This document shows, one piece after another, positions 905 through 27,131 of a stretch of 27,131 nt of DNA. The notes under the pieces were generated by a model. That model was not told the DNA's origin and did not search any database. It saw nothing but the letters and a program-made list of their open reading frames with translations. The DNA comes from a virus. How positions within the stretch are numbered: the stretch's first letter is position 1; each line of letters begins with the position of its first letter. A program made the translations under genes and the position numbers. The stretch covers positions 1 to 27,131 of IMG/VR virus record IMGVR_UViG_3300020203_000083, one strand, 5' to 3'.

Positions 905-1209
905 TATTTATTCTCCTTCTTCGGAGTATACTTAATCTGTTTAATCTCTTGCAGCTTCACACTAAACGCAGCTTCTTTGTCAAAATCCTTAATGATGTCA
1001 GTAATGCCGGGAAGGTTACGGTATTGATCGCCGAAGCGCAGACGAAGGGCATTTGTAAGACGAAGACGCCCAACGGGAGAGAACTCGAGCTTCGGCATTC
1101 GCTCACCGAGGATTGTACTGAGGTCATCAAGGGAGAGCTTCTTTGCTCCGCCCTTTTCACCTCGTTCGCCCATCATTTCGTTTAGCGTAACTTTACCTTT
1201 GCCTGGCAT
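904..1209 (-). CDS. Small conserved-looking virion-operon protein (101 aa), function unknown
   Basis: The gene encodes 101 residues with a basic Gly/Lys-rich N-terminus (MPGKGKVTLNEMMGERGEKG) and a compact helical core: LSLDDLSTILGERMPKLEF, then a GRLRLTNALRLRFGDQYRN segment. The C-terminus is lysine-rich. It is preceded by AGGAAA about 11 bases before the ATG. Its stop overlaps the start of the next gene in a TAATG arrangement, so the two are probably made in fixed ratio. It sits between two ejection-type proteins, so a minor virion component or ejection-complex assembly factor is plausible. I recognise no named domain. Confidence 0.75.
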   Translation of the reverse strand: MPGKGKVTLNEMMGERGEKGGAKKLSLDDLSTILGERMPKLEFSPVGRLRLTNALRLRFGDQYRNLPGITDIIKDFDKEAAFSVKLQEIKQIKYTPKKENK

Positions 1210-13605: not shown

Positions 13606-14388
13606 TTATCTTTGAGTTCTCATCTTGCGCATTTCTTCTGCGAAACTCAAGGGGCGATCTTGTTTTTTCTCCGGTGTTACACTTTTCGCCGCCCCTCCAC
13701 TGGGTCCAGTCGCAGTCACTTTCTTCGACGTCAGTTCCGTTCTAGGTTTGTGTATTTCCATGATTTCTCGGTATTCGTCGCGTGTTTTTTGCGCAAGTAA
13801 CTGCATGCCCTTTTTAATGTCCGTTATTTTTCCAAACACGTCGGCATTTTCACCAAAGATTCGCTCCGCATCCTTGCGACGAACGTCTGGGTAATCACTA
13901 AGGAACTGATTCCAGAGCGTTTCACGTTGAGTTTCTGCGCGAATCAGGGCGATGGCTTCTTGTGTCGCCTGTGCTTTCATTTCTTTGAGCTTCGCCTTCG
14001 GATTGGCGTAGAACTCCTCTTCGAATGTATCTTCTATTTCTTCAGGCACGTGCGCGGGAGCTTGACTGCGAAGAGTCTCGCGAATTCCTTCATTGTAGGC
14101 TTCGTTAACGATTTTTTCGCGCTCAAGTGTTTCTGCATACTTTATTGCCTCGGACTGGGTCTTAAAGGTCTGGTCACCGATACGAATCAGCGTCTCTTCT
14201 TCGGCGTCCTCCTTTACTTCTGTCTCCTCTACTACATCTTCCGGAGCAGCGTCGTCCTGCGCCTGGACCTCTACGGGGTCAGATCCCGCAGGAAGATCAC
14301 TCAACTCCGCTGATCCGCCTTCTCCCGTTACCGCCGTATGTTTAGCGTCTTCTCTTGTTCGTGCGAGTTCCTTGAGCATTTCAGACAT
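13606..14388 (-). CDS. Capsid scaffolding protein
   Basis: The 260-residue product lies directly upstream of the major capsid gene. It has an acidic disordered N-terminal half (DPVEVQAQDDAAPEDVVEET, residues 36-55), a helical coiled-coil middle (EAIKYAETLEREKIVNEAYN, about 80-100, and LKEMKAQATQEAIALIRAE), and a basic C-terminal tail (SFAEEMRKMRTQR). Acidic, helical, with a short basic coat-binding tail is the usual scaffold design of P22 and related phages. It would direct procapsid assembly and leave before or during packaging. The start lies eight bases inside the preceding small gene. No protease motif is visible. Confidence 0.85.
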   Translation of the reverse strand: MSEMLKELARTREDAKHTAVTGEGGSAELSDLPAGSDPVEVQAQDDAAPEDVVEETEVKEDAEEETLIRIGDQTFKTQSEAIKYAETLEREKIVNEAYNEGIRETLRSQAPAHVPEEIEDTFEEEFYANPKAKLKEMKAQATQEAIALIRAETQRETLWNQFLSDYPDVRRKDAERIFGENADVFGKITDIKKGMQLLAQKTRDEYREIMEIHKPRTELTSKKVTATGPSGGAAKSVTPEKKQDRPLSFAEEMRKMRTQR

Positions 14389-14632
14389 TTCGTTTCTCCT
14401 CTAGAGTGCGGTAAAATTGATCTTTCTGGTTAATGTCGCGCATGATGTTCGTAATTACGCTCAATTCAGCGACTAAGTTGAGCGTATTCTGGTCACCGTC
14501 ACGGTACTTTGCCATGAGTCGCTCGAATGCGACCTTGCGCATGCGCTCGAGCAGCGGCATTAGTACGGGACCCGCGAGATAGAAGGTCTTTGCGTCTAGT
14601 ATTTCGTCTTCTCGACTTACTCCGTCTCTCAT
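14381..14632 (-). CDS. Small helical protein between portal and scaffold, unknown function
   Basis: The 83-residue protein is predicted almost entirely helical (YLAGPVLMPLLERMRKVAFE, then LNLVAELSVITNIMRDINQK). Its ATG overlaps the portal stop by one base (TAATG), and it overlaps the scaffold start by eight bases, so its synthesis is coupled to both. Many podoviruses carry a short gene at this point. A portal- or scaffold-associated assembly helper is plausible, but no family is recognised. Confidence 0.75.
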   Translation of the reverse strand: MRDGVSREDEILDAKTFYLAGPVLMPLLERMRKVAFERLMAKYRDGDQNTLNLVAELSVITNIMRDINQKDQFYRTLEEKRNV

Positions 14633-16521
14633 TACATCCCCTTAGTGGCGGGGGAGCCGGGAAAGTCCGCTTGCGGAAAAGACGGTGTCCCCATCATTTC
14701 CTGCATGGCCCCTTGCATGTCCGGACCCGGAACTTGGCTCATTGTATCGGGCTGGCCCTGATTTCCTGGGTCCATCGGTTGCTCCTCCTCACCCGGTTTC
14801 ATTGTCGCCTGTACGGCCTTCGGGTGTTCGAGCTTGTATTTATCAATACTGAGCGACGTCATGACTTCTTCGAGATACTTCGTGAGGTCATACTTCTGCG
14901 AGAAGGCCTCCATGAGTGGGGGCGATGCCGAAATAGTCTGAAGGAGTGTCGTGAGTTTCGTATAATCCTGCGCCCGCGCAAGCGTCATCGTAATCCCGTA
15001 AACGCGAAAACGAACTCCATTTACTGTCGAAGCGAAGACTTCTTCGGCGGGAATTACGGCCATCTCCGCACCTCGTTGAGGACCAAAGAGCGAAATGAAA
15101 ACCTCACGGTCAATCATGTCCCAGTTCTGTGCCGTCGTCATCCAGGCGAGTTCGATCTCCTTCTGACTTTGTCTGCTCTCGTAGTTCTTCGCCATGCCTT
15201 GAAATACTGACGTAATGGACTGACTTGCTTCGACGACTTCAGTCGCCTTTACTGCACGAAAGGGCATCACTCCCTGACGAAGATCGTTCGTGAGGGCTGA
15301 CGAATTAAACTCCTGATTCATGATGTTGTAGACGTTAAAGGCTTCATTCGGGATCTGTACTGCTGTGACGTCTTCCATTACTTTTGCTCCATAGGGGAGC
15401 ATGGAATTTACAGCGAGTGTGGCTCCGGGCTGAATCCCATCGGCGACCTGGCCCGGATTATCGAGCGCATCTTTTCTGATCTGCTTAACCGCATGTACCT
15501 GCATCATGCCCGCATCCACCATGAGATTATACATCTCGATGAGTGCGCGATTGTGCTGTGTTGGTGCGTCCATCGGGGCCTTATGCCATACGGAGTTAGC
15601 GACTTCCATGAGAGGAGAGACTGTATAGGGTGAGCGTTGATGCCAGAGAGGATTCGGAGTTGGCGGGCGAATTAAATCCGTATCGTTTGCAATTGTAATG
15701 ACGACGTTTTCGTATTCGATCTCCCCCGTGGTCGGGTCAATGACGGTGCCCCAGAATTCTGTCACCTTCACAGTTGGACGGTGGCCGGAGTTCGTCGTAT
15801 TCTGTCCGACTTCTCGTGCAACATCGGCCTTTTCTGCACTGTCTGCAGCGCCCGATCGTGAGAGTCCTTTAACTATGTCACTTTCGTAAATTGCATTATC
15901 TCCCTCGGCGAGAGCGAGGACTTCATAGAAGTCAGGAAATGAATCTTCGATTTCGTACATTTTTCGCCCGGTCGGATCGGGGTAGTAGTTCTCCGCCCGC
16001 ACAAGTGAGAACATGATCTCCCATGTTTTGTTCTCGATCTTCTCGATCCAACGGCGAAAGGACTTACCGCGTCCCTTTTTTCGCGCAATGAAGCGCGGCT
16101 TCGGAACGAGTTTCCCGGAGGTCTTTGAGATCACGAGTGAGGCGAGCATTGCACTCTCGACGGAGTTTCCGACGTGGGCGAAATATCCCGACTGAGTCAT
16201 CATATAGTTAGTTAGTTTAGTGATCTCGTGTGGACGAACGACCATTCCTTGTTCGGTGTCCGGGTAGCAGGCTTCGGCAGTCCACCAATCGCCTAGATCT
16301 GCGAGTGCCTGCTGGAAGAAGGACTTATTTTGCTCCACTGCCATACTTTGCTTCGAGAGAACTTCTTGACTCTGTCCTTCGCGTTTATGACTGAAGTCGT
16401 GACGCAGGTGAAACATGTCGTAGTTTTCACGATTGCGACTCATGCGATCGCGCTTTGCCTCTTCGGCCTCGTCTCTGCATGAAAGTACGAACGCGATAAT
16501 CTCTTTATCTGTCATTGCCAT
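14632..16521 (-). CDS. Portal protein
   Basis: The 629-residue product has the size and arrangement of podovirus portals: a helical N-terminus (EIIAFVLSCRDEAEEAKRDR), the clip/wing motif AENYYPDPTGRKMYEIEDSF (about residues 175-195), the long wing region with WHKAPMDAPTQHNRALIEMY, and a helical crown/barrel with YESRQSQKEIELAWMTTAQN. The C-terminus is Pro/Gln/Met/Gly-rich and probably disordered. It forms the dodecameric ring at one vertex through which terminase pumps DNA. It overlaps the terminase gene by 17 bases, and AGGA lies six bases before the ATG at 16521. A second ATG six bases downstream is a less likely start. Confidence 0.9.
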   Translation of the reverse strand: MAMTDKEIIAFVLSCRDEAEEAKRDRMSRNRENYDMFHLRHDFSHKREGQSQEVLSKQSMAVEQNKSFFQQALADLGDWWTAEACYPDTEQGMVVRPHEITKLTNYMMTQSGYFAHVGNSVESAMLASLVISKTSGKLVPKPRFIARKKGRGKSFRRWIEKIENKTWEIMFSLVRAENYYPDPTGRKMYEIEDSFPDFYEVLALAEGDNAIYESDIVKGLSRSGAADSAEKADVAREVGQNTTNSGHRPTVKVTEFWGTVIDPTTGEIEYENVVITIANDTDLIRPPTPNPLWHQRSPYTVSPLMEVANSVWHKAPMDAPTQHNRALIEMYNLMVDAGMMQVHAVKQIRKDALDNPGQVADGIQPGATLAVNSMLPYGAKVMEDVTAVQIPNEAFNVYNIMNQEFNSSALTNDLRQGVMPFRAVKATEVVEASQSITSVFQGMAKNYESRQSQKEIELAWMTTAQNWDMIDREVFISLFGPQRGAEMAVIPAEEVFASTVNGVRFRVYGITMTLARAQDYTKLTTLLQTISASPPLMEAFSQKYDLTKYLEEVMTSLSIDKYKLEHPKAVQATMKPGEEEQPMDPGNQGQPDTMSQVPGPDMQGAMQEMMGTPSFPQADFPGSPATKGM

Positions 16522-18109
16522 TTGGTTTCCTCATATTAGGGAGAAGTGATTCGGGTTTAGGGGTATCGTTATGACGCTGAAAACCATAAGTCGGAGCGGG
16601 GATTGGTGCGGAACTGTAATGTTCGCTGCGATAGGATTTAAGTCCGCCGCATAAGTACTGAAGTGCATCGTGCGGGTGCGAGTGAATGTCCTTCATTGGG
16701 CGAACTCTGTCGGGCTCAAGGTCGATGACTTTGTCGGGGTAGCGAAATCCACCCTTGAACCCCGCAACGAGAACGGGACAATCGGGCTCGTAGATTTGTA
16801 GACGTGGACGTCCCGACGAAAGTCCGAGGAGAAAGTCCGTTACTCCCTCAACTCGTTTCTTCCATGTCATTGGACCCGGACGGATCTGTCTGAATCCACC
16901 CATCATGAGTGACTGGAGGTAGGTCTCCTCGGTGATTTCGTTCTTCTTAAACCCCGCTGGATCGAAGAATGAAATAGTCTGCGCCGTTATGTCAGTGATC
17001 TGCGGGTAGTGAAGGAGTATTTCTCGCGTAACGTAAGGAATGAAGCGTTTTGCGCCCATGCCGGAGCCTATGATTTCTCGAATTATGACGATAGTTTCGC
17101 CTTGTAGTTGTGCCAGGACGCATGCGGGAGTGAGACCCGATGAGTCCCATCCGAGCAAGAGGGGTAGTCCTACATGGACACTTGGTCGAACTCTCACTCC
17201 ATGGATGAATTCATTAAAGTCCTCATAGACGGGCTTACCTTCAAAGGTCGCCCAACTCTTTCCATACTCCATCCGATATATGTGCAGAGGGAGAGTCTTC
17301 TTTAGTCCCTCCTCGAATTCAATTGAGCGTTTGGCGGGATTGGCCCTGTGACTGAGGTCGATGACGGTGAATTCGTTGCGGGGATTCTCCCAGACTTCAA
17401 CCCCTTCCATTGGTGACTTCGGCGTCACTGGGGGGATGTCGGCGAAGTTCAAGTCTTTCGCATCGAGCTTATCGTAGACGATTTTTTTGAAGAAGCCTGG
17501 AAATCGGGTCGAGACCATGACCATGCGACCGCCGCCCTTGACGGTCGGTTCTGCTGACGCATACGAGGCCTCCGCATCCTCCCAGAAGGCGCATTCGTCT
17601 TCGAGAATACCGGAGAAACCCCTTTGACGAAGCTGGTTTCCTCCGCTCGGGAAGCCCATAATTTTCGAGTAAATGTCGGGAAACTCCATCACCGGAGGAG
17701 ATGACTGCATTTCTCCGCGTTTTAGTTTCGGCAGTAAATCGGGCGAAATCATATTTGCAGGAATGTGATCGTAGATGAACTTTGCCCGCTGGACGAGTTC
17801 CTTTGAGTCCTCCTCCTTCTTTGAGACGAAGGCCCAACTTCGGCCCTTATGAAAGATCACGTCCCAGAGTGAGAGTGCGATGAAGGTCCATGAGACGGTG
17901 AGGCGGCGAGACTTCGGAATGGCGAGCTTCTTTTTCTGTACCCACATGAGTGTCAGGAATTTCAGGTAAAGCAAATGTGTCGGGAATTGCTTGATGGGAT
18001 TTTCTTGATCGACTTCGTCTGACGTCCAGACGCAATACTTCAGAAACATCCAAGGATCATCGCGAAAGAGGGCATACCGCTCGAGCGCATCGTCAGGTAA
18101 TTCGGTCAA
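16505..18109 (-). CDS. Terminase large subunit
   Basis: The 534-residue packaging motor has an N-terminal ATPase and C-terminal nuclease. An atypical Walker A (IPKSRRLTVSW, residues 64-74), Walker B (GILEDECAFW, with D171 and E172) and a coupling motif (VMVSTRFPG, S200-T201) are visible. The RNase-H-like nuclease carries acidic residues in LLLGWDSSGL (D322), SFFDPAG (D383) and HDALQYLC (D481). The start is TTG at 18109. No strong Shine-Dalgarno is present (a GGGG lies 11-12 bases upstream), which suggests modest translation. The upstream gap holds two palindromes. It overlaps the portal gene. Packaging mode (headful versus cos) cannot be read here. Confidence 0.93.
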   Translation of the reverse strand: MTELPDDALERYALFRDDPWMFLKYCVWTSDEVDQENPIKQFPTHLLYLKFLTLMWVQKKKLAIPKSRRLTVSWTFIALSLWDVIFHKGRSWAFVSKKEEDSKELVQRAKFIYDHIPANMISPDLLPKLKRGEMQSSPPVMEFPDIYSKIMGFPSGGNQLRQRGFSGILEDECAFWEDAEASYASAEPTVKGGGRMVMVSTRFPGFFKKIVYDKLDAKDLNFADIPPVTPKSPMEGVEVWENPRNEFTVIDLSHRANPAKRSIEFEEGLKKTLPLHIYRMEYGKSWATFEGKPVYEDFNEFIHGVRVRPSVHVGLPLLLGWDSSGLTPACVLAQLQGETIVIIREIIGSGMGAKRFIPYVTREILLHYPQITDITAQTISFFDPAGFKKNEITEETYLQSLMMGGFRQIRPGPMTWKKRVEGVTDFLLGLSSGRPRLQIYEPDCPVLVAGFKGGFRYPDKVIDLEPDRVRPMKDIHSHPHDALQYLCGGLKSYRSEHYSSAPIPAPTYGFQRHNDTPKPESLLPNMRKPNGNDR

Positions 18110-18125: not shown

Positions 18126-18136
18126 GGTGTAACACT
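18126..18136. promoter_or_regulatory. GGTGTAACAC(T) palindrome before the terminase large subunit gene
   Basis: This site matches GGTGT(A/T)ACACC at 10 of 11 positions and lies 17 bases upstream of the TTG start of the terminase large subunit. It belongs to a set of similar palindromes found before other genes in both arms (18940-18950, 23527-23537, 23833-23843, 24909-24919). It may be an operator or promoter element; the binding protein is unknown. Confidence 0.45.
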
Positions 18137-18141
18137 ACTGT

Positions 18142-18159
18142 AATGTAAGTTCTTACATT
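18142..18159. promoter_or_regulatory. Perfect 8+2+8 dyad in the terS-terL gap
   Basis: AATGTAAG and CTTACATT flank a central TT, giving a perfect inverted repeat of 18 bases, too tight for an RNA hairpin loop but ideal as a dimer binding site. It lies about 33 bases upstream of the terminase large subunit start, next to the 18126 palindrome. A related ATTACACTGTAAT dyad overlaps the end of the small subunit gene (18239-18251). Confidence 0.45.
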
Positions 18160-18228
18160 CGAGCCTAGGGAAAGATTTACAGGGTGACTAGGTGAAAATG
18201 GTCCTGATGCACTGCGCTATGCGCCCCG

Positions 18229-18933
18229 TCAACTGCGAATTACACTGTAATCCGTAACCCAGTCCTCGAGCAGATCCTCTTCCGTGCGCGGCTTTGTTTC
18301 GGTGACTGTCCGGAGCGGTGCATTGAGTTGGCGATCTGTCGCAAATATCTTCCCGCTTTGTTTCATTCCATCAAGACGGTCCATCAAGACGCCAAGGACG
18401 TTTTCACCAATATCGTGTTTTTGCGTCGCTTTACCGTCGAGCTTCTCAACGAGCCATTTCGCAATATCAAGCTGCTCGGACTTCTTATAGATATTCTTCT
18501 TGTCCTTCAGACACTCTTCGAGCTTTTGCAGAGCGGGCTCGGCAAAGGACCTAAGTCTCGATCCGATGGAATCCTCAAACAGCTTGTCCTGCAGGCGAAC
18601 GATCTCGTCCGCAATATAAGGACTCTTTAGCAACGTAGAAGTCCACGCCGCCGTATATCCAAGCTCCGCACCTATGTCGTTGTTTGATTTACCCGATGCA
18701 GCTAGTTGGCAAAAGCGCCTGTGCCTCGGAGTAAGGACTCCGTTGGAGAGGGTTTGCCGCACTGCGTCTTCATTAAAGGCTTCGGTTTCTAGTAATGAGC
18801 CTGACGAAACTGGCGGAGATGACGAAACTGACGGAATCGGCGGACTCGTCGCGGGAGGAGCAGCGAAGGCCGACCGTGTCACCGCCGCAGGAGCGTCACT
18901 CCAATCACTTAGCTCGTCGTCAACGTCACTCAT
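18229..18933 (-). CDS. Terminase small subunit
   Basis: I choose the ATG at 18933 (MSDVDDELSDW), giving 234 residues. AGGGG lies directly before it, and the longer frame to 19122 has no ribosome site and an unlikely sequence. Residues 1-60 are acidic, then Ser/Pro-rich and probably disordered. Residues 77-110 (LTPRHRRFCQLAASGKSNND, IGAELGYTAAWTSTLLKSPY) form a helix-turn-helix typical of terminase small subunits, followed by a helical oligomerisation region (RSFAEPALQKLEECLKDKKN). It recognises the packaging site and recruits the large subunit, which is encoded next. The C-terminus ends DYSVIRS. The 119-base gap to terL is unusual in this packed operon. Confidence 0.85.
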   Translation of the reverse strand: MSDVDDELSDWSDAPAAVTRSAFAAPPATSPPIPSVSSSPPVSSGSLLETEAFNEDAVRQTLSNGVLTPRHRRFCQLAASGKSNNDIGAELGYTAAWTSTLLKSPYIADEIVRLQDKLFEDSIGSRLRSFAEPALQKLEECLKDKKNIYKKSEQLDIAKWLVEKLDGKATQKHDIGENVLGVLMDRLDGMKQSGKIFATDRQLNAPLRTVTETKPRTEEDLLEDWVTDYSVIRS

Positions 18934-18939
18934 TCCCCT

Positions 18940-18950
18940 AATGTTACACG
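18940..18950. promoter_or_regulatory. Partial TGTTACAC palindrome before the terminase small subunit gene
   Basis: TGTTACAC matches eight of eleven positions of GGTGT(A/T)ACACC and ends about seven bases before the ATG at 18933, next to the AGGGG ribosome site. Its location relative to the start parallels the other copies, but the match is weaker. Confidence 0.3.
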
Positions 18951-19191
18951 AACGTGCGCGTGGGTCGAGAGGGTAACGCGTTGTGTCAAGTCTAAAATCA
19001 CTCACGCTAGTGGGAGGTTGATAGCCTAAGCACAAGCTCGCCGGGTCACCGTGCCACCCCGTAGGGCGGGGGTTCGCCGTTGTCAAGACGCACCTCGGCC
19101 CAAAACATGTTGGAGAACCCACGTGCTCCGCACCTTTCGATGGCTCTCTCGCCTTGAACTGCTGATATGTAATGCAGATACCGTGCCGCGT

Positions 19192-19224
19192 CTAAGTGCG
19201 CGGAATCATTACGCGGTGTATTAG
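19192..19224 (+). repeat. Long direct repeat, copy 1
   Basis: CTAAGTGCGCGGAAT followed by a variable centre and CGCGGTGTATTAG matches 20035-20068 in the same orientation, with a few substitutions and a one-base indel. Both copies are intergenic and contain two CGCG boxes. See the second copy for interpretation. Confidence 0.6.
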
Positions 19225-19246
19225 TTACACTGTAAAACTTTTGGGC

Positions 19247-19264
19247 GTTCACGCGAACGTGAAC
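19247..19264. promoter_or_regulatory. Perfect 7-bp hairpin in the divergent region
   Basis: GTTCACG and CGTGAAC flank a CGAA tetraloop. The dyad lies between the two TGTAAAACTT repeats. It is not followed by a T tract on either strand, so an operator or a structural element is more likely than a terminator. Confidence 0.45.
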
Positions 19265-19311
19265 TACATTCACCAATGATCACGGGGACTTAAGTCGTAT
19301 TGTAAAACTTA

Positions 19312-19324
19312 TTGACAGTGTCAA
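19312..19324. promoter_or_regulatory. TTGACA-G-TGTCAA palindrome
   Basis: This is a perfect 6+1+6 palindrome. Read on the minus strand, TTGACA could serve as a -35 box, with TACAAT 15 bases downstream as a -10 box, giving a weak promoter towards the terminase operon. The same half-sites recur in reversed order at 20006-20022. Confidence 0.4.
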
Positions 19325-19327
19325 AAT

Positions 19328-19351
19328 CTGCAACCTGCAACCTGCAACCTG
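19328..19351 (+). repeat. Heptamer iteron array (CTGCAAC x3)
   Basis: Three perfect tandem copies of CTGCAAC plus CTG occupy 24 bases. The reverse complement (GTTGCAG units) differs by one base per unit from the array at 19552-19575, so the two arrays are inverted relative to each other across about 200 bases that include a T-rich tract. Confidence 0.8.
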
Positions 19352-19551
19352 TACTTTTACCCCCTCTGTGTACCACTTTGACGCAGTGTGTTGGCATAGA
19401 TTTTGCAATGCGTCACGCCGTTAAAACTTTTTTGATCTACGGATACCTCGAAGTTTTTTTTTTAATACAGACCCCTATTTGGAAACCCCTCTGTAGACGG
19501 GAAGAATGGCGGGAAGTTGACGTAGAGAGGGGGGCGAAATACAGGTTGCGC

Positions 19552-19575
19552 GTTGTAGGTTGTAGGTTGTAGGTT
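19552..19575 (+). repeat. Heptamer iteron array (GTTGTAG x3), inverted partner
   Basis: Three perfect tandem copies of GTTGTAG plus GTT occupy 24 bases. ACAGGTTGC just before (19541-19549) also matches the reverse complement of the edge of the first array. Inverted arrays of equal size suggest a paired initiator-binding site or a large imperfect cruciform. Confidence 0.8.
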
Positions 19576-19604
19576 ATACGTCACCGCAACCGCAACCGTG
19601 ACCG

Positions 19605-19629
19605 CCCAGTGACCGTAGTTGTCACTGGG
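19605..19629. promoter_or_regulatory. Perfect 9-bp dyad upstream of the first rightward gene
   Basis: CCCAGTGAC and GTCACTGGG flank a seven-base loop. The dyad ends seven bases before TACTAT (19636-19641), which resembles a -10 box, and 12 bases before the AGGAG ribosome site. No good -35 box was found at standard spacing. An operator controlling the rightward arm is a reasonable reading; an mRNA leader hairpin is the alternative. Confidence 0.5.
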
Positions 19630-19651
19630 GTGACATACTATAGGAGTGACC

Positions 19652-19903
19652 GTGACCGTGAGTGACGAAGAGAGCGCGAAGAGGCTCGAAGAGATTAGGC
19701 GACGGGCGAGGGAGTACGTGAACGAGGCGTACGCTCTCACGCAAGCGCCTGTACCGCTTAGACACCTTGGTGCGAGGTTTGGGAGACTGTGTCGGTCACT
19801 TGACCTTAATATTAGAGACGTACTCGTGGCAGACGCACAAGAACGGTTTATCGTGACGCTCAATCCAGTGACCGGCGGCTACTTCGTGCATACGAAGGAT
19901 TGA
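19652..19903 (+). CDS. Small possible winged-helix protein, first gene of the rightward arm
   Basis: GTG codons occur in frame at 19646, 19652 and 19658. AGGAG occupies 19642-19646, so 19652 (five-base spacing) is the best start, giving 83 residues. A charged helix (ESAKRLEEIRRRAREYVNEA) is followed by PVPLRHLGARFGRLCRSLDL, then IRDVLVADAQERFIVTLNP and VTGGYFVH. A PVPL-LG helix followed by helices and a beta wing resembles small winged-helix (LOTUS/OST-HTH-like) domains. This is pattern reading, not a secure match. Being first after the control region, a regulatory role is possible. The start lies inside a GTGACC repeat array. Confidence 0.6.
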   Translation: MTVSDEESAKRLEEIRRRAREYVNEAYALTQAPVPLRHLGARFGRLCRSLDLNIRDVLVADAQERFIVTLNPVTGGYFVHTKD

Positions 19904-19979
19904 GTGGCGACGTCTTGTACAGTGACTGAAGGTTTGACGGAGTTGTAAATAGCGTCCTTGTTTTAGGGGTTTAGCTGGG

Positions 19980-20002
19980 GTGAGTCTCGTCCTGAGGCTC
20001 AC
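19980..20002 (+). promoter_or_regulatory. Hairpin after the first rightward gene
   Basis: GTGAGTCTC pairs with GAGGCTCAC (nine pairs, one G-U) around a GTCCT loop. No T tract follows, so it is at best a weak terminator. It sits in the 231-base gap 19904-20134 with other dyads and could act as an attenuator or RNA-processing site. Confidence 0.4.
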
Positions 20003-20005
20003 GGG

Positions 20006-20022
20006 TGTCAATAAGTTTGACA
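20006..20022. promoter_or_regulatory. TGTCAA-N5-TTGACA inverted repeat
   Basis: Perfect six-base arms flank TAAGT. The half-sites are the same as in the 19312-19324 palindrome but in the opposite arrangement. TTGACA is also the -35 consensus; no clear -10 box follows at 17 bases. Candidate operator shared by both edges of the control region. Confidence 0.4.
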
Positions 20023-20034
20023 GGTTGGGTGGAG

Positions 20035-20068
20035 CTAAGTGCGCGGAATTACTCGCGTGGTGTATTGG
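20035..20068 (+). repeat. Long direct repeat, copy 2
   Basis: CTAAGTGCGCGGAATTACTC continuing to GCGTGGTGTATTGG matches 19192-19224 in the same orientation. The copy lies 67 bases upstream of the gene at 20135. Same-strand intergenic repeats of this length could be phage-specific promoters or binding sites. Confidence 0.6.
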
Positions 20069-20095
20069 CCCGTCCAGTGCATTGAGTGAGTGCGT

Positions 20096-20115
20096 GACCA
20101 ACGCGAATGTTGGTC
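20096..20115 (+). promoter_or_regulatory. Perfect 7-bp hairpin before the gene at 20135
   Basis: GACCAAC and GTTGGTC flank a GCGAAT loop. It ends seven bases before the GGAG ribosome site of the following gene, a position from which it could tune translation or act as an operator. There is no T tract. Confidence 0.45.
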
Positions 20116-20134
20116 GAAACCTGGAGTAGAACGA

Positions 20135-20386
20135 ATGAGAGCCTCTAAACTAAGTAGCCGACGTCAAGACCTGATCGATTTAGCCGCCGAGCTTGGTATT
20201 CAAATTAAGGTCGCTAAAGAGAGTGATCGTAATGCCATTGGTATTCACCTATTACATCCAGATCTGGAAGCCTTAGAAGATGCGCTACAGGTCGCTGAGC
20301 GAGACATGTTTCCGGCCATTTACATTCACCGTGGCAACCCTCGTTCGTTTAGCCAATCCCTCATTAAGACTGTTGAGGGCAAGTAA
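20135..20386 (+). CDS. Small hypothetical protein (83 aa)
   Basis: The ATG at 20135 (MRASKLSSRRQDL) is preceded by GGAG at nine bases. The longer GTG start at 20090 would run through the 20096-20115 hairpin and is disfavoured. The protein has a basic N-terminus, a helix (LIDLAAELGIQIKVAKESDR), IGIHLLHPDLEALEDALQVA and a C-terminal IYIHRGNPRSFSQSL. An alternating beta/alpha layout is likely, but no family is recognised. The next gene starts one base after its stop. Confidence 0.7.
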   Translation: MRASKLSSRRQDLIDLAAELGIQIKVAKESDRNAIGIHLLHPDLEALEDALQVAERDMFPAIYIHRGNPRSFSQSLIKTVEGK

Positions 20387-20387
20387 C

Positions 20388-20891
20388 ATGGACCTTAGAA
20401 CTCAACTAGAGGCCGCTCAGAAACGTGCATACAGCCTCAAGACTAAAAAGGCTCAGACTAAGGCGTTCTTAGTAGTCCGTGAACTCCGTGATCAGATACT
20501 CAACGGCCTGTACGAACAGTCTAATAAGTATGCGAAACATTCAGTCAAGGCGACTGTACGAGTTGCATACTCAGGTGATGATTCACTGTTTGATACTGAG
20601 TATGGGAGTTTCTGGATTAGTCCGGCGAACGATGAGTTAACGAAGTCATGGTACGAACATACGTCGTGTATTGAATACACCGAAGGCCAGTCCGTGGTGA
20701 TTGAATTCGACGTCGAAGTAGACAGTGACCGCTTGTGTATATACCGCATCCCTAAGCGCGTTTACGGCGGACGTGTGAACGAGGCTCAATACGCTGAACT
20801 CTGCAAGCGTGATGATTTAGCGTTCTTTAAGTACCCCAACAGCACGGGCGTGACCGGCTTATTTAAGCAGACGGCGGTCCAAGGTGAATAA
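20388..20891 (+). CDS. Hypothetical protein (167 aa)
   Basis: The start is the ATG at 20388 (MDLRTQLEAAQKR), with GAGGG nine bases upstream. The longer frame beginning at 20280 overlaps the previous gene and is rejected. Residues 1-50 are helical and basic (KTKKAQTKAFLVVRELRDQI). The middle is mixed beta with many aromatics (YGSFWISPANDELTKSWYEH), followed by SVVIEFDVEVDSDRLCIYRI and a C-terminal AELCKRDDLAFFKYPN. No catalytic motif is recognised. The following gene overlaps it by eight bases, so it is part of an operon. Confidence 0.7.
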   Translation: MDLRTQLEAAQKRAYSLKTKKAQTKAFLVVRELRDQILNGLYEQSNKYAKHSVKATVRVAYSGDDSLFDTEYGSFWISPANDELTKSWYEHTSCIEYTEGQSVVIEFDVEVDSDRLCIYRIPKRVYGGRVNEAQYAELCKRDDLAFFKYPNSTGVTGLFKQTAVQGE

Positions 20892-21099
20892 CCGACAATT
20901 CAAACTTCACTTATTAGCTCGCATTGAAATTCTACTTCGTGGTGATCATGCGGAATGTGAAGGCGCGGAAGAGCTTCAATCAATCGTTGACTGGATTGAC
21001 ACAGTTGGTGACGGGCATACACATCACGCAACGTTGCAGGACATGTGCGACTGGGTTGGTGAGCCGAATCTAGTCCAGGTGAGCGATAACAAGGCTTAA
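20884..21099 (+). CDS. Small acidic hypothetical protein (71 aa)
   Basis: The start is the GTG at 20884, overlapping the previous stop region by eight bases, with only AAGG nearby as a weak ribosome site, so expression probably depends on coupling. The sequence is acidic and helical (LHLLARIEILLRGDHAECEG, then IVDWIDTVGDGHTHHATLQD). The GHTHH cluster could bind metal, but this is speculative. No known family. Confidence 0.6.
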   Translation: MNNRQFKLHLLARIEILLRGDHAECEGAEELQSIVDWIDTVGDGHTHHATLQDMCDWVGEPNLVQVSDNKA

Positions 21100-21124
21100 T
21101 TAACTTTAAACAAAGGATATTTAC

Positions 21125-21445
21125 ATGAAACCATTTACGAATAAACTAGATTCAGCGATAACCATGTTCCGTACGGATTACCAAATTATGTGCGATAACC
21201 TTAAGGATATCCAATCTACCCTAGGGCACGGTCAAGACATTGACATACGCTTGTGTGTAGACTTCGAAGATACTACGCCGTCTTGGATTATTCGAAGCGG
21301 CGACGCATCTTACGACCAACGTCATTCCGATGTTTGCGGGGCTTCCAGTATCGATAAAAAAACTAAACTCAAATCTGAACCCGCATGCGAAGTTTTGGAA
21401 GAGTTGATTAACCAATGCTTAGACCAAATACACGAATTAATTTAG
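21125..21445 (+). CDS. Hypothetical protein (106 aa)
   Basis: The ATG follows AAACAAAGGATATTTAC, a good ribosome site that recurs nearly word for word before the gene at 21511. The protein has a helical N-terminus (LDSAITMFRTDYQIMCDNLK), a central beta strand (DIDIRLCVDFEDTTPSWIIR) and an acidic helical C-terminus (CEVLEELINQCLDQIHELI). It carries four cysteines without a metal-binding spacing. No family recognised. Confidence 0.7.
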   Translation: MKPFTNKLDSAITMFRTDYQIMCDNLKDIQSTLGHGQDIDIRLCVDFEDTTPSWIIRSGDASYDQRHSDVCGASSIDKKTKLKSEPACEVLEELINQCLDQIHELI

Positions 21446-21477
21446 GCGTACAGAGACAAGGTTTTTTTAACATTAAC

Positions 21478-21492
21478 AGGGCCACCGGCCCT
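21478..21492 (+). promoter_or_regulatory. GC-rich hairpin in the gap between two small genes
   Basis: AGGGCC and GGCCCT flank ACC. A seven-T tract lies upstream (21462-21468) rather than downstream, so it is not a normal rho-independent terminator for either strand. It may be a processing or translation-tuning element for the gene that starts at 21511. Confidence 0.4.
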
Positions 21493-21510
21493 AAACAAAG
21501 GATGACTGAA

Positions 21511-21750
21511 ATGAATAACTCATACATATCAAGCATCGTCACGAAGTACGGCGACCTGGATAACGTGAGGCGCGACGCTAAGACACTTAATGAGATTCAG
21601 TCACGTCAAGGTGCAAGCCTGCTGATCGATGCGGTAGCTGAGGCAACAGGCCGTGCCGTTAATGAATTTAGTATGTCGGCTGCAGACCGGAAGCGACTCG
21701 TTGACTCATTGATTTTAGAATTTAAAGACGCATTATTGGAGAGGACTTAA
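21511..21750 (+). CDS. Small hypothetical protein (79 aa)
   Basis: AAAGGA lies seven bases before the ATG at 21511 (MNNSYISSIVTKYGD). The in-frame ATG at 21502 directly abuts the ribosome site, and the frame start at 21415 lies inside the preceding gene, so both are disfavoured. The protein is helical: DLDNVRRDAKTLNEIQSRQG, then LLIDAVAEATGRAVNEFSMS and LVDSLILEFKDALLERT. It resembles small phage helical proteins of unknown role. Confidence 0.65.
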   Translation: MNNSYISSIVTKYGDLDNVRRDAKTLNEIQSRQGASLLIDAVAEATGRAVNEFSMSAADRKRLVDSLILEFKDALLERT

Positions 21751-21762
21751 TTATGGTGCCAA

Positions 21763-22032
21763 ATGAATAAGCCTAAACATACTCCAGGACCGTGGATGGT
21801 TAACGATATGACGCTGAATTATGTCGTGTATTCAAATACGAGTATTCAAGCACGTACCGATGGCCATACAGCATTGGACGAAGCCAACGCCCGGCTAATA
21901 GCTTCATCACCTGACGCCGTATTGCTGTTCGAAGATTTGCAAGAGTACTTAAGTGAGCACGGCGGGCAGGGAGTCGAGTTACTTAGTCGCATCGATGCAT
22001 GGCTTGCTAAAGCAACAGGGGGTACCGAATGA
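21763..22032 (+). CDS. KHTPGPW-family small phage protein, unknown function
   Basis: The 89-residue protein opens with MNKPKHTPGPWMVND and contains DEANARLIASSPDAVLLFED. KHTPGPW followed by ANARLIAxxP is a very common signature of small proteins in phage genomes, whose function is not established. The ribosome site is weak (no clear Shine-Dalgarno in the 12 bases upstream). The end overlaps the next gene by ATGA coupling. Confidence 0.75.
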   Translation: MNKPKHTPGPWMVNDMTLNYVVYSNTSIQARTDGHTALDEANARLIASSPDAVLLFEDLQEYLSEHGGQGVELLSRIDAWLAKATGGTE

Positions 22033-22424
22033 AACCCTGTCCAACCTGTACCAGGCCCTTAGACCCGAGTCTCGACTCTCATCTCGGCACCATGGACGGG
22101 CTCGAGTTTTACAATTGTACTTGCGGTTCGACTTATACGAAAGAGGCGAAAATGAAATTTGACCGAATACGTGATGCACTGATCGAAGAGTTATGCGATG
22201 CGGGCGAACTTATTCGCCGTGGTGGTGATCTCTTCGAGGACATGGGCGGGCATGTCGTCCATGAGTCACAACTTGACAGATATATAGATGACTACATGGT
22301 GAACTTGAGTGAGGAAGATCGCAACGAACTTGTAGAGCGAACGCGTAGTGAAGGCTCACCGAATGACGATAACGATCAAGCATACCAGAGCGCAGTCGAT
22401 TGTGAAGAGGAAGATAAGGTATGA
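22029..22424 (+). CDS. Zinc-ribbon-like acidic protein
   Basis: The 131-residue protein starts MKPCPTCTRPLDP and has a second cysteine pair in FYNCTCGSTY (C4, C7 and C30, C32), forming a probable short zinc ribbon. The remainder is acidic and helical (IRDALIEELCDAGELIRRGG, then SEEDRNELVERTRSEGSPND), ending in an acidic tail. Zinc-ribbon proteins in early phage regions may contact nucleic acid or host proteins. The start and stop are both in ATGA overlaps, marking it as an internal member of a coupled run. Confidence 0.7.
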   Translation: MKPCPTCTRPLDPSLDSHLGTMDGLEFYNCTCGSTYTKEAKMKFDRIRDALIEELCDAGELIRRGGDLFEDMGGHVVHESQLDRYIDDYMVNLSEEDRNELVERTRSEGSPNDDNDQAYQSAVDCEEEDKV

Positions 22425-22615
22425 CATCACCCCATGGAACACTAGAGGTCCTCGTCGTAAACCACTATGGGCGCGAAACAATTCGGCCCATGAATGATCT
22501 CGCCCGAAGGTTTGCTGAGTTACTCGGGCAAAAGACACTTACGAGATTAAACGTTGAGGCGATTAAACACATAGGATTTACAGTTATGGTTAAATCCGGA
22601 GAGGTTACACTATGA
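22421..22615 (+). CDS. Small hypothetical protein (64 aa)
   Basis: It starts in an ATGA overlap with the zinc-ribbon gene and ends in an ATGA overlap with the membrane-protein gene, which supports translation. The sequence (TLEVLVVNHYGRETIRPMND, LARRFAELLGQKTLTRLNVE) suggests a small beta-alpha fold. Not recognised. Confidence 0.65.
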   Translation: MTSPHGTLEVLVVNHYGRETIRPMNDLARRFAELLGQKTLTRLNVEAIKHIGFTVMVKSGEVTL

Positions 22616-22842
22616 ATAATTCAATCAAACTAATTACGCTCATGGGAATGGTACTGGTAGTTGGCGTAATTCTCGGCTTTGGTCTCATGCTCAGCGAGCC
22701 ACTATTACTAAGCATCCAGGCGATCATTAAACAGTTACCGGAATTAGCCTCACTTTCTTTTCAGACGTGGAGAGTCATCGGCTATGGTGCAGTCGTGACA
22801 GTTGTTATTCTTGCCATAGTGGGAGAAGGAGAAACGCCATGA
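22612..22842 (+). CDS. Small two-helix membrane protein
   Basis: The 76-residue product has two hydrophobic segments: residues 6-28 (KLITLMGMVLVVGVILGFGL) and about 54-71 (VIGYGAVVTVVILAIVG), separated by an amphipathic stretch (SIQAIIKQLPELASLSFQTW). It is preceded by GGAGAGG and a partial copy of the palindrome (GTTACAC, 22604-22610). Size and topology would fit a holin or a superinfection/membrane modulator, but no endolysin lies nearby, so a lysis role is only a possibility. Confidence 0.7.
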   Translation: MNNSIKLITLMGMVLVVGVILGFGLMLSEPLLLSIQAIIKQLPELASLSFQTWRVIGYGAVVTVVILAIVGEGETP

Positions 22843-23018
22843 CAGCAATTGAAATTAAATCAATACAGGAAGAAATGGAAAAGAAGATCAACGTCCATGG
22901 AGAGCTTCACCTCGATGCGACACAGACGAAGCTTCTCTTTTCGTGGATGAAACGTCTTACCGACACGGTACAGATGTACGATGGACTAATGCGACGGTTA
23001 CTAGGAGAGAAATCATGA
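22839..23018 (+). CDS. Small helical hypothetical protein (59 aa)
   Basis: The start is the ATG at 22839 (MTAIEIKSIQEEM), overlapping the previous stop as ATGA with GGAGAAGGAG just upstream. The longer frame from 22767 is rejected because it lies inside the membrane-protein gene. The sequence is amphipathic helix throughout (IQEEMEKKINVHGELHLDAT, then LLFSWMKRLTDTVQMYDGLM). It may interact with its membrane neighbours. Function unknown. Confidence 0.65.
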   Translation: MTAIEIKSIQEEMEKKINVHGELHLDATQTKLLFSWMKRLTDTVQMYDGLMRRLLGEKS

Positions 23019-23272
23019 TACGTCACCTCCTACTCGCTGTGTTTATTGTTTATTTCGCCTCACTCTTCGTGCCGCGCTTTAGTGCGGATGCGAAAGTTGG
23101 TGGACGTCCACCGACTCACTGCCCGGACGGATACGCTTACCAGTTGCCCGCCACCTATCCCACTGGCGGACAATACATCGCATGTGAGAGTTTCGATGAG
23201 TTTCATGCCCTACTGGCCAAAGGTCATGTCACAGAGGCTGAAAAAATGATTTTCGGTCCTGCTGCTCCTTAG
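23015..23272 (+). CDS. Small exported or membrane-anchored protein
   Basis: The ATG at 23015 overlaps the previous stop (ATGA). The N-terminus MIRHLLLAVFIVYFASLFVP, then RFSADA, is a clear signal peptide or membrane anchor with a plausible cleavage after ADA (about residue 26). The mature part carries HCPDGYAYQLP and IACESFDEF, two cysteines that could form a disulfide outside the cytoplasm, and ends in GPAAP. There is no lipobox, so it is not an obvious o-spanin. With 22612-22842 it forms a membrane/export pair that may act at the envelope. Function unknown. Confidence 0.7.
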   Translation: MIRHLLLAVFIVYFASLFVPRFSADAKVGGRPPTHCPDGYAYQLPATYPTGGQYIACESFDEFHALLAKGHVTEAEKMIFGPAAP

Positions 23273-23312
23273 GGTAAACTGGTCGGATTAATCCAAACGA
23301 AGGAGCCCTTGA

Positions 23313-23504
23313 GTGGCACACAGTTATCCGACAAAAGAACAACTAGAAGCTGCTCGACGTGCGAAAGAACCGACCATGGTCGATCAAATGAAAAACGCAT
23401 GGGATGACTTTCAGGCTGCTGGCGCTAATTCCTTCTCGGGCGCAAACAGTGAAGCGATAAAGCGCGTAGAAGAACGCGGTAAGGTAAAGAAAAATAGCAA
23501 ATAG
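23313..23504 (+). CDS. Small basic hypothetical protein (63 aa)
   Basis: The start is GTG at 23313, eight bases after AGGAG. The sequence is helical and charged (YPTKEQLEAARRAKEPTMVD, then QMKNAWDDFQAAGANSF) with a Lys-rich C-terminus (GKVKKNSK). A short gap upstream holds the palindrome GGATTAATCC (23285-23294), which may mark a promoter or operator. Not recognised. Confidence 0.6.
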   Translation: MAHSYPTKEQLEAARRAKEPTMVDQMKNAWDDFQAAGANSFSGANSEAIKRVEERGKVKKNSK

Positions 23505-23513
23505 CTTTGCGTA

Positions 23514-23555
23514 TTGAGGGGACAATGGTGTAACACCGTCCTTTCACCCCCTCAA
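23514..23555 (+). promoter_or_regulatory. Nested dyad with GGTGTAACACC at its centre
   Basis: TTGAGGGG (23514-23521) pairs with CCCCTCAA (23548-23555), GGAC (23520-23523) with GTCC (23538-23541), and the perfect palindrome GGTGTAACACC (23527-23537) lies in the middle. The AAAGGAG of the next gene begins within the right arm, so folding could hide the ribosome site. It may work as an operator in DNA, as a translational switch in RNA, or both. Confidence 0.5.
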
Positions 23556-23567
23556 AGGAGACCCAAC

Positions 23568-23819
23568 GTGGGCGGATTCAAGGATACGCTGAGCGAGGAC
23601 GCTAGTGAACTCGACGAATGGCTCGACCGTAGCGAGTCTCCGACTAATGAGGAAATTACTCATATGGCACTCGCGGCGACACTTAAGGACATCGAAGAAT
23701 TCGAGATCCGTTTGCTGCGTCTGTGCGACCGGGCGAAATACTACCACGAAAACGTAGACTACGACACGCTCGAGTTTCTGGCTCGAGAGATTCAGCGCAT
23801 CAAGAAGGGTTTCCCTTGA
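23568..23819 (+). CDS. Small acidic hypothetical protein (83 aa)
   Basis: The start is GTG at 23568, seven bases after AAAGGAG. The longer frame from 23514 would translate through the dyad and is disfavoured. The protein is acidic and helical (DTLSEDASELDEWLDRSESP, TLKDIEEFEIRLLRLCDRAK), ending LEFLAREIQRIKKGFP. Its last codons form part of a three-way repeat (AAGGG, CCCTT, AAGGG) ahead of the next gene. Function unknown. Confidence 0.65.
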   Translation: MGGFKDTLSEDASELDEWLDRSESPTNEEITHMALAATLKDIEEFEIRLLRLCDRAKYYHENVDYDTLEFLAREIQRIKKGFP

Positions 23820-23843
23820 TCAGGTAAGGGAAAATGTTACACC
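23805..23843 (+). promoter_or_regulatory. Attenuator-like alternating hairpin and palindrome copy
   Basis: AAGGG (23805-23809), TTTCCCTT (23810-23817) and AAGGGAAA (23826-23833) can pair in two mutually exclusive ways, the second being an 8-bp perfect stem over an eight-base loop. The first arm and the middle lie in the closing codons of the preceding gene, so ribosomes finishing that gene could choose the fold. A 9 of 11 match to the palindrome (AATGTTACACC, 23833-23843) follows, ending seven bases before the next ATG. Confidence 0.45.
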
Positions 23844-23850
23844 TTATGCC

Positions 23851-24243
23851 ATGGCAAACCGTAAAGATGAGAGAGAAAAGTTAATCCGAGAAGTCACCAA
23901 TGACCTACTTACTTCGAAGTTCATTACTGACGTAGGACAAAAGGCACAGGTTGAACGTGTCCGCATCGAAGCCTCGCAACATATAGATGAACTGCGAGAG
24001 GTGATACGTGAAGTTGGTCGAAACCTCGAAGAGATCGGTGCCGTCCCAAAGGGCATGACCTATCGTGGCTCACTTACTGTGCATGTTTACACGGGAGATG
24101 CCACGAAGACCTTCGCTGCCGCATCAATCTCCGCCTTTGACACCATGACATTTGATCTCGCCGATGCAGCACTGCGCGAACTTACGGGCTCTACCTTAGA
24201 GAGTTACGGCAGATCACGCAAGAAACTCAGGAGTGGATTTTAG
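23851..24243 (+). CDS. Hypothetical protein (130 aa) lacking a clear ribosome site
   Basis: The product begins MANRKDEREKLIREVTNDLL and is helical up to residue 65 (ERVRIEASQHIDELREVIRE, coiled-coil-like). A beta-containing C-terminal part follows (SLTVHVYTGDATKTF, SISAFDTMTFDLADAALREL), ending in a basic tail RSRKKLRSGF. No Shine-Dalgarno is visible before the ATG, unlike its neighbours; the stretch holds a palindrome copy instead, so initiation may be leaderless or regulated. The stop overlaps the next start (TAGTG). Not recognised. Confidence 0.65.
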   Translation: MANRKDEREKLIREVTNDLLTSKFITDVGQKAQVERVRIEASQHIDELREVIREVGRNLEEIGAVPKGMTYRGSLTVHVYTGDATKTFAAASISAFDTMTFDLADAALRELTGSTLESYGRSRKKLRSGF

Positions 24244-24536
24244 TGAAAGCAAAAGTGAAAGCGAAAAAGAAACCTGGACGTGTAATCAGAATCGATCCCC
24301 TTTTAGTAAAGACACTTGAGGAAAAGAAACGTCCATACGAAACCATGAGTGGGCTTCTTCGTAGACTCATGGGCCTGCCCTCCCGTAAAGGAGCCGTCGA
24401 AGTTCGTGCTTATTATGTTCTTCCGAGTGATATGGCAGAGACAGTCGAAGAGGCCAGAGGTCGCGCCATCATCGAAAAGGTAAAGCGTAAACTCGCTAAG
24501 CCCGAGCGTCCCGTCGTTGTCCGAGAAGTCGTATGA
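24243..24536 (+). CDS. Ribbon-helix-helix DNA-binding protein
   Basis: The start is GTG at 24243, overlapping the previous stop as TAGTG. A Lys-rich N-terminus (MKAKVKAKKKPGR) precedes the ribbon-helix-helix pattern VIRIDPLLVKTLEEKKRPYE, then TMSGLLRRLMGLPSRKG (residues 14-50), as in SeqA/CopG-type domains: one beta strand, then two helices. The C-terminal part (YYVLPSDMAETVEEARGRAI, then EKVKRKLAKPERP) is helical. It would bind DNA as a dimer and is the best visible candidate to bind one of the palindromes in this window, although that is inference. Confidence 0.7.
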   Translation: MKAKVKAKKKPGRVIRIDPLLVKTLEEKKRPYETMSGLLRRLMGLPSRKGAVEVRAYYVLPSDMAETVEEARGRAIIEKVKRKLAKPERPVVVREVV

Positions 24537-24892
24537 AGGAGGACTGGATACCGCTCCTTTCCCCTTGCGCGTTTGAGTTATTTACTGCGGAGGCCTTTAA
24601 AGTCTATGTGCGCGGACTCAATACGCCCCGTCGAGTAAAGCGAACGGCGGCGGTGAAGAAAACACCACCTCCTTTTGCATGGCGGGTGAATGCAAAGGGC
24701 ACCCTCGTTATTACTATTCGGCGAAAACCCAAGTGGCTTACTCGTGCAGAGGTTGACGGGATCGCAGCAGCAGCGAAGATTGATTCACGTCTCGTGTGGC
24801 TTAAGGTTATGGCGAAGAAGTCCGCCATACTCATTATGGATACGGAAGAAAGTGCAAGTCGCATTGCGAAAGCCCTAGACGCTAACGTCTGA
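24533..24892 (+). CDS. Basic hypothetical protein (119 aa) coupled to the RHH gene
   Basis: The ATG overlaps the stop of the ribbon-helix-helix gene (ATGA). The 119-residue product is rich in Lys, Arg and Ala: VKRTAAVKKTPPPFAWRVNA, then GTLVITIRRKPKWLTRAEVD and AILIMDTEESASRIAKALDA. The arrangement suggests a small alpha/beta domain with a basic face, perhaps nucleic-acid associated. Coupling to a DNA-binding protein hints at a joint role. Not recognised. Confidence 0.65.
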   Translation: MKEDWIPLLSPCAFELFTAEAFKVYVRGLNTPRRVKRTAAVKKTPPPFAWRVNAKGTLVITIRRKPKWLTRAEVDGIAAAAKIDSRLVWLKVMAKKSAILIMDTEESASRIAKALDANV

Positions 24893-24908
24893 TGATGTAA
24901 TCTCTTCG

Positions 24909-24919
24909 GGTGTTACACC
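24909..24919. promoter_or_regulatory. Perfect GGTGTTACACC palindrome before the methyltransferase gene
   Basis: This is a perfect 11-bp palindrome (odd central base), flanked by TCTC and GAGA four and three bases out. It ends 13 bases before the ATG at 24933 and abuts the GGAG ribosome site. With 23527-23537 it is the strongest member of the set. Confidence 0.5.
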
Positions 24920-26318: not shown

Positions 26319-26758
26319 CCTGCTATTGCAAAGATTGCGGCAAAACTTTGTGCGTTTGTGTTGCGGTAGCTGCGCAAGTGAGCGAGAGGTCGACATTCGG
26401 GCGTGACGTTATAAAAGCAATCAACTATCTCGACGGCGTTGCAGCGGTTAATCTCGCCGAGCCTAACCCCGGTGATCTTGAGCGCGTGGTGCAAGCATTT
26501 GCTAAAGCCCGTGCGGACCTGCGTGAGGCGCAAGCTGAGCTAACCAATTGCGGGGTTGAGATTGATCGCTACATGAGAGAGCGCGACGAGGCACTGGTTG
26601 AGTTGGGTCAGATGCGTGCGCAAAACGTCGAGGCGAAGGACGAAATATCTAAGTTGATATATGGCTGGCCGAAAGAGCGCGACGCCTTACGCGCTGAAGT
26701 GAAACAACTAAACACTTTAGTTCAGGTTTTACGTAATCGAGAGGCGGGTTTAGAATGA
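26315..26758 (+). CDS. Cys-cluster plus coiled-coil protein (147 aa)
   Basis: The N-terminus MTCYCKDCGKTLCVCVAVAA holds five cysteines (C3, C5, C8, C13, C15), a dense cluster that could bind a metal ion. The rest is a long charged helix (LERVVQAFAKARADLREAQA, then ELTNCGVEIDRYMRERDEAL), typical of a coiled coil, followed by EAKDEISKLIYGWPKERDAL, the part that is duplicated in the gene at 26946. It may be an oligomerising structural or regulatory protein. The start overlaps the preceding small gene and the stop overlaps the next (ATGA). Confidence 0.65.
   Translation: MTCYCKDCGKTLCVCVAVAAQVSERSTFGRDVIKAINYLDGVAAVNLAEPNPGDLERVVQAFAKARADLREAQAELTNCGVEIDRYMRERDEALVELGQMRAQNVEAKDEISKLIYGWPKERDALRAEVKQLNTLVQVLRNREAGLE
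26629..26684 (+). repeat. 56-bp perfect direct repeat, copy 1
   Basis: This segment inside the Cys-cluster gene is identical over 56 bases to 26990-27045, and both copies encode EAKDEISKLIYGWPKERD in the same frame. Similarity continues more weakly downstream (ALRAEVKQ versus GLRAELKE), which points to an older duplicated module with a recently homogenised core. Confidence 0.85.
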
Positions 26759-26949: not shown

Positions 26950-27131
26950 GCGACAAGCCGACATTCGTGGAATTTGAGGCGGCATTACGCGAGGCGAAGG
27001 ACGAAATATCTAAGTTGATATATGGCTGGCCGAAAGAGCGCGACGGGCTTAGGGCAGAGCTTAAAGAGTGTGAGATCACAATCGAAAAGCTTGATGAAGC
27101 ATGCGACAATCTACTCAGCCAGCGCCGCCAT
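26946..27131 (+). CDS. Partial gene sharing a duplicated module with the Cys-cluster gene
   Basis: The frame opens MSDKPTFVEFEAALREAKDE and runs off the right edge after 62 residues. It is coupled to the preceding gene by ATGA. Residues 16-33 are encoded by the 56-bp direct repeat shared with 26315-26758, and a charged helix follows (GLRAELKECEITIEKLDEAC), so a coiled coil is likely. It appears to combine the start cassette of the gene at 26755 with the helical module of the gene at 26315. Confidence 0.6.
   Translation, partial: MSDKPTFVEFEAALREAKDEISKLIYGWPKERDGLRAELKECEITIEKLDEACDNLLSQRRH
26990..27045 (+). repeat. 56-bp perfect direct repeat, copy 2
   Basis: Identical to 26629-26684 and in the same reading frame of a different gene. 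The copies are 361 bases apart; recombination between them would delete the gene at 26755-26949. Confidence 0.85.

Follow-up and report, generated by a model that had tools for sequence, protein, structure and literature searches.

Gene arrangement and palindromic sites

The analysed DNA, hereafter the window, is a complete IMG/VR viral contig of 27,131 bp. Its structural and packaging arm runs leftward, and the rightward arm consists of small genes. Named phage relatives of the window were sought and none was close, and bacterial genomes searched with MCP or TerL alignments revealed no host. The genes and sites considered here are listed below, with matches counted against the 11-bp palindrome GGTGTWACACC (intact form, GGTGTAACACC).

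12584–13543, minus strand: major capsid protein (MCP), 31% to the putative major capsid protein of a Vibrio phage, with the 13673 site upstream of it
13673–13683, minus strand: palindrome in the last codons (AGT-GTA-ACA-C) of a 260-aa head/scaffold-like ORF, 10/11 match
14632–16521, leftward arm: portal-like gene
16505–18109, minus strand: terminase large subunit (TerL), phrog_2, E 4.5e-11, downstream of the 18126 site
18126–18136, minus strand: TerL palindrome AGTGTTACACC (sense), 16 nt before the TTG start at 18109, 10/11 match
18229–18933, minus strand: terminase small subunit (TerS), assigned by an HMM common to all relatives covering the region and by its position before TerL
18940–18950, minus strand: weaker TerS palindrome CGTGTAACATT (sense), 6 nt before the ATG at 18933, 8/11 match
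22601–22611, plus strand: possible degenerate copy GAGGTTACACT touching the ATG at 22612, two core mismatches, doubtful
23527–23537, plus strand: site A, perfect palindrome (11/11) before the 83-aa gene
23568–23819, plus strand: gene A, 83 aa, GTG start at 23568, homologs in G004, G006 and L012
23833–23843, plus strand: site B, AATGTTACACC, 7 nt before the p130 ATG at 23851, 9/11 match
23851–24243, plus strand: p130, a conserved early-cluster gene
24243–24536, plus strand: 97-aa candidate regulator with an unconfirmed ribbon-helix-helix (RHH)-like N-terminus, homologs in G004 and G006
24533–24892, plus strand: p119, third cluster gene
24909–24919, plus strand: site C, perfect palindrome immediately upstream of the Shine–Dalgarno (SD) sequence of a DNA methyltransferase gene (ATG 24933), just past the RHH operon

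The initial annotation of this DNA had reported perfect copies at 23527–23537 and 24909–24919, together with 10/11, 9/11 and 8/11 matches at 18126–18136, 23833–23843 and 18940–18950, and all of them lie where it placed them. Its distances to the start codons hold for TTG 18109 and ATG 18933 on the minus strand and for GTG 23568, ATG 23851 and ATG 24933, and the one site described as having no ribosome site beside it is that of the gene starting at 23851, which has no SD sequence. A partial relative that it listed at 22604 received no comparative support.

The two arms are separated by a long non-coding stretch (18951–20089), which is a candidate origin or divergent promoter region. This stretch contains a 43-nt inverted repeat (19325–19367 / 19526–19568, units GCAACCT/AGGTTGT), a 17-nt inverted repeat at 19301 / 20006, and a direct repeat, CTAAGTGCGCGGAAT, at 19192 and 20035. 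It also contains GTGTATTAGTTACAC at about 19216–19231, an inverted repeat of the form GTGTA-N5-TACAC that resembles a split palindrome. At the right end of the window, near-identical AKDEISKLIYGWPKERD is found in two adjacent ORFs (26630–26690 and 26990–27050), which suggests a recent duplication.

Enrichment of the core and its conservation at late genes

The meaningful unit of the palindrome is the 9-bp core GTGTWACAC, which is often extended to GGTGTWACACC. The core occurs four times in the window against 0.08 copies expected from shuffles, and 33 times in 16 same-clade contigs (275 kb) against 0.90 expected (Poisson P ~1e-39). Among 256 odd palindromes counted in these 16 contigs, it ranked first, and the runner-up reached 4.4-fold. 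No excess was observed in distant capsid relatives (670 kb; 1 copy vs 2.6 expected) or in unrelated phages (1.07 Mb; 3 vs 5.4). Because the excess is limited to the clade, the element is clade-specific and not general to phages or a product of base composition. The motif had been proposed for a test against shuffled sequence, and its enrichment holds for the core but not for the 11-mer with three mismatches allowed, for which the window contains 37 matches vs 41 expected; the weak copies are therefore credible through comparison only. Other palindromes that might fill the same role in sister clades (e.g. GGGGTWACCCC, found at the VT codons of L134) were rejected because they are not enriched. 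The papers listed by a literature search on the motif letters were all unrelated.

The TerL relatives compared (L005–L015) are 59–99% identical, and capsid relatives were compared as well. Ahead of each of the ten TerL starts examined, the best match to the palindrome is located at a distance of 10–27 nt. Eight of these sites have no core mismatch, and the remaining two have one and two; the probability of finding at most one mismatch in random 45-nt windows is 0.012. In G003, L007 and L101, the TerL start codon follows one base after the palindrome. Weaker sites are present at the equivalent position before TerS in G003 (CGTGTAACACT), G004 (AGTGTAACTTT) and L012 (GGGTTACAC), so that the weak copy at 18940 has counterparts at TerS homologs. 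Apart from the capsid copy, the spacing between palindrome and start codon across the sites is 1–30 nt. A short ORF (1019 on) that begins with MEYFKDMPGHEHRYQVSNYGRVFS is situated between the TerL-type palindrome and TerL in L126 (994–1120), and it resembles a remnant of a NUMOD4/HNH endonuclease.

The copy at 13673 lies 130 bp ahead of the major capsid start at 13543 in the window. It had been annotated as a partial relative inside coding sequence; the position was right, but the copy, a 10/11 match, is among the best conserved. In the relatives, the capsid copy is found 122–148 nt ahead of the capsid start within the final codons of the upstream 260-aa gene, and every relative with an MCP identity of 77% or more has it. 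At this distance it is too far from the start to be a translation-start element. The peptide (S/G/N)VT(P/Q) is also kept in several motif-free relatives, but it is spelled there with different codons. The threonine codon is ACA in 10/10 relatives whose capsid identity is 77% or higher vs 2/8 motif-free ones (Fisher 0.0015), and the palindrome is spelled at the capsid position in 8/8 phages with a TerL site vs 0/4 without one (Fisher 0.002), the true significance being below both P values because the phages are related. Judged from these codons, the capsid copy is under nucleotide-level constraint beyond the SVTP peptide, as coding does not require the palindrome.

The element, its positions and its conservation at the nucleotide level are direct observations. 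Conservation in related phages, which the initial annotation had put forward as a further check, is borne out by orthologous sites at TerL, TerS, the capsid gene and the early cluster, in line with the clade-wide count.

The early cluster and candidate binders

The early cluster of the window is arranged in the order site A, 83-aa gene, site B, p130, 97-aa protein, p119 and site C. In G004, sites A (38155) and C (36927) are perfect in the core, while G006 has only site A (28077), at the counterpart of the 83-aa gene. Site B, the weak copy at 23833, is degenerate in G004 (AGTTACACT) and perfect in the core in L012, which is cut by the contig end. A further site in L012 (1021) is followed by an extra helix-turn-helix gene and then by the 83-aa gene. 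This extra gene (about 680–1000, minus strand) matched PF13936 (HTH_38) with E 3e-5, under the curated cut-off, and is possibly another regulator. The gene that follows site C is a methyltransferase in the window and a different one in G004, and site C therefore belongs with the cluster and not with the methyltransferase.

The 97-aa protein encoded at 24243–24536, which the initial annotation had suggested as a ribbon-helix-helix binder, is the leading named candidate, though only a tentative one. Among the contigs searched, its homologs were found only in G004 (45%) and G006 (39–40%), in addition to the near-identical L006 contig, and always within the cluster. Sites lie on either side of its operon in the window and G004, and in G006 there is one upstream of it. 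A low-confidence AlphaFold2 model (pLDDT 63) places a strand and two helices at the N-terminus (E13–16, H19–27, H35–42), but no family or fold match was obtained in Pfam, PDB sequences or Foldseek, and none to Arc by hhalign. The confidence of the p130 model was too low for use. Since p64 (22421–22615) is common to the window, G004, G006 and L012, the same four phages that have the cluster, it is also a possible regulator; no convincing domain match was found for it. TerS was set aside as the binder, being found in motif-free relatives too. TerS aside, the genes common to all motif-bearing phages yielded no universal phage regulator.

The 41.9-kb contig G003, which differs in its replication region, has neither a homolog of the 97-aa protein nor the early-cluster genes. 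It retains perfect TerS/TerL sites and has TerS, TerL and portal in common with the clade. Either its packaging module was acquired together with the sites, or the sites are served by another binder or by a host binder. G003 also encodes an unrelated NikA-like RHH protein of 54 aa. The region 36964–41155 of G003 (L110–L112) carries the TerS–TerL–portal genes of this clade amid otherwise different replication and tail genes, an arrangement that is a module swap. The same contig carries a Zn-finger-like ORF in duplicate (58–321 and 36674–36970).

Mode of action and comparison with known control sites

Complementarity at the outer flanking pair of the palindrome was seen at 14 of 31 sites vs 13.0 in shuffles, and there is therefore no RNA-stem covariation at this pair; the invariant inner core hardly varies, so covariation is not assessable there. 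Degenerate copies tend to retain one half of the palindrome. We favour an element that acts as DNA and not as RNA. A search for sigma-70 -10 and -35 boxes at a fixed offset from 23 sites gave -10 scores at shuffle level and a two-box score with P 0.035, and the regulated promoters were not located because no consistent boxes were present. Individual -10-like sequences include TATAAT 5 nt before the core at TerL of L098 and TATAGT 3 nt before the core at 30596 of G006. With regard to the earlier proposal of a phage-wide operator or promoter element, a regulatory DNA site is upheld by the enrichment, the orthologous positions, the constraint inside a gene and the absence of stem covariation, while no consistent sigma-70 boxes were found that would decide between promoter and operator.

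We consider it probable from the sequence comparisons that GTGTWACAC is the dyad DNA operator of a phage regulon comprising packaging, capsid and early-cluster genes. As expected for such operators in general, it is a repeated and over-represented dyad site that lies upstream of genes and is kept at orthologous ones. The regulator would be a dimer, most likely a phage protein made from the early region, that binds the dyad site and controls transcription into the late genes for TerS, TerL and the major capsid protein, as well as into the early cluster bracketed by sites. Both the dimeric nature of the binder and the sign of regulation are what we infer, the likeliest action being repression, or a roadblock a short way downstream of where the transcript begins. 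Because the site usually coincides with the ribosome site or start codon or just precedes it, the promoter would need to be upstream of it.

Among the alternatives, the most plausible, at perhaps a third of the weight we give the phage operator, is that a host transcription factor binds the palindrome and that the phages borrow this regulator for late-gene timing, making a phage binder unnecessary. The perfect TerS/TerL sites of G003, which persist with a different early/replication region and without the early cluster, are consistent with this explanation, as is the failure of the common genes other than TerS to reveal a universal phage regulator. However, unrelated phages have no motif excess, though their hosts may differ, and the sites bracket a regulator-like phage cluster in several phages. 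It is rather unlikely that the palindrome is part of a phage-specific promoter, at or near which an activator or a phage-modified polymerase initiates. The -10 sequences at L098 TerL and G006 30596 would start transcription inside the palindrome, and a TerS–TerL spacer exists where the motif is present, whereas in several motif-free relatives TerL directly adjoins or overlaps the gene before it; against this, the -10 score is at shuffle level over the 23 sites and the palindrome-to-start spacing ranges from 1 to about 20 nt.

A role in RNA, with a GGUG-UWA-CACC hairpin beside the ribosome site controlling translation or processing, is improbable. At TerL, TerS, p130 and the methyltransferase gene, the palindrome does adjoin a ribosome site or start codon, and GGTG could be part of an SD sequence where the start follows one base later, but the outer pair shows no compensatory change, only one half survives in degenerate sites, and the MCP copy lies within a gene, remote from the start. 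Chance repeats or codon bias would fit the absence of a window excess for the 11-mer with three mismatches, yet they are refuted by the clade-wide enrichment and carry a negligible probability.

Under the phage-operator reading, a more specific and speculative picture is that a possibly strictly lytic clade uses one short palindromic operator of graded strengths (weak at TerS, strong at TerL, and one inside the scaffold-like gene that precedes the capsid gene) for coordinated control of packaging, capsid and the early regulator cluster via a new small regulator family, with no antiterminator or phage polymerase. The ten G004 genes scanned included no integrase or other lysogeny gene. The palindrome gives a concrete, testable control element for phages known from metagenomes alone, and it unites an early cluster with the late genes for packaging and capsid in a single candidate regulon. 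It also provides a case of a regulatory palindrome kept inside coding sequence and puts forward a few unknown small proteins that may include its binder.

The RHH phage repressors Arc and Mnt are small dimers that act on a short symmetric operator in a compact autoregulated operon. By analogy, a small dimer on a short symmetric operator is proposed here, but unlike Arc, the 97-aa candidate has no detectable Arc homology (hhalign) and no Pfam or PDB-fold match. The stoperators of Cluster A (L5-type) mycobacteriophages are 13-bp asymmetric sites, oriented with transcription and present in more than 20 copies per genome, that are bound by the monomeric immunity repressor of these temperate phages (PMC9283540). 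Like stoperators, the palindrome is short and recurs across the phage genome in small gaps between genes, where stoperators are thought to control transcription initiation or elongation (PMC9283540). In contrast, the present site is a symmetric 9–11-mer with few copies per genome and one copy inside a gene, and as an odd palindrome whose central W is A or T in either sense, it has neither their asymmetry nor their orientation. The SAS/ESAS of Cluster K mycobacteriophages are 13-bp GGGATAGGAGCCC-type sequences with the SD core AGGAG, located 3–7 bp before the start; the SAS is non-palindromic, has one orientation and is found only at non-structural right-arm genes (PMC3203893). Both elements are short conserved sequences a few bases before the starts of orthologous genes, and the function and binder of the SAS are likewise unknown (PMC3203893). 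The palindrome differs from the SAS in sequence and symmetry, has no AGGAG/SD consensus, lies at variable distances with one copy 122–148 nt upstream, and also occurs at structural and packaging genes. It is a repeated control site like stoperators and SAS, but a member of neither.
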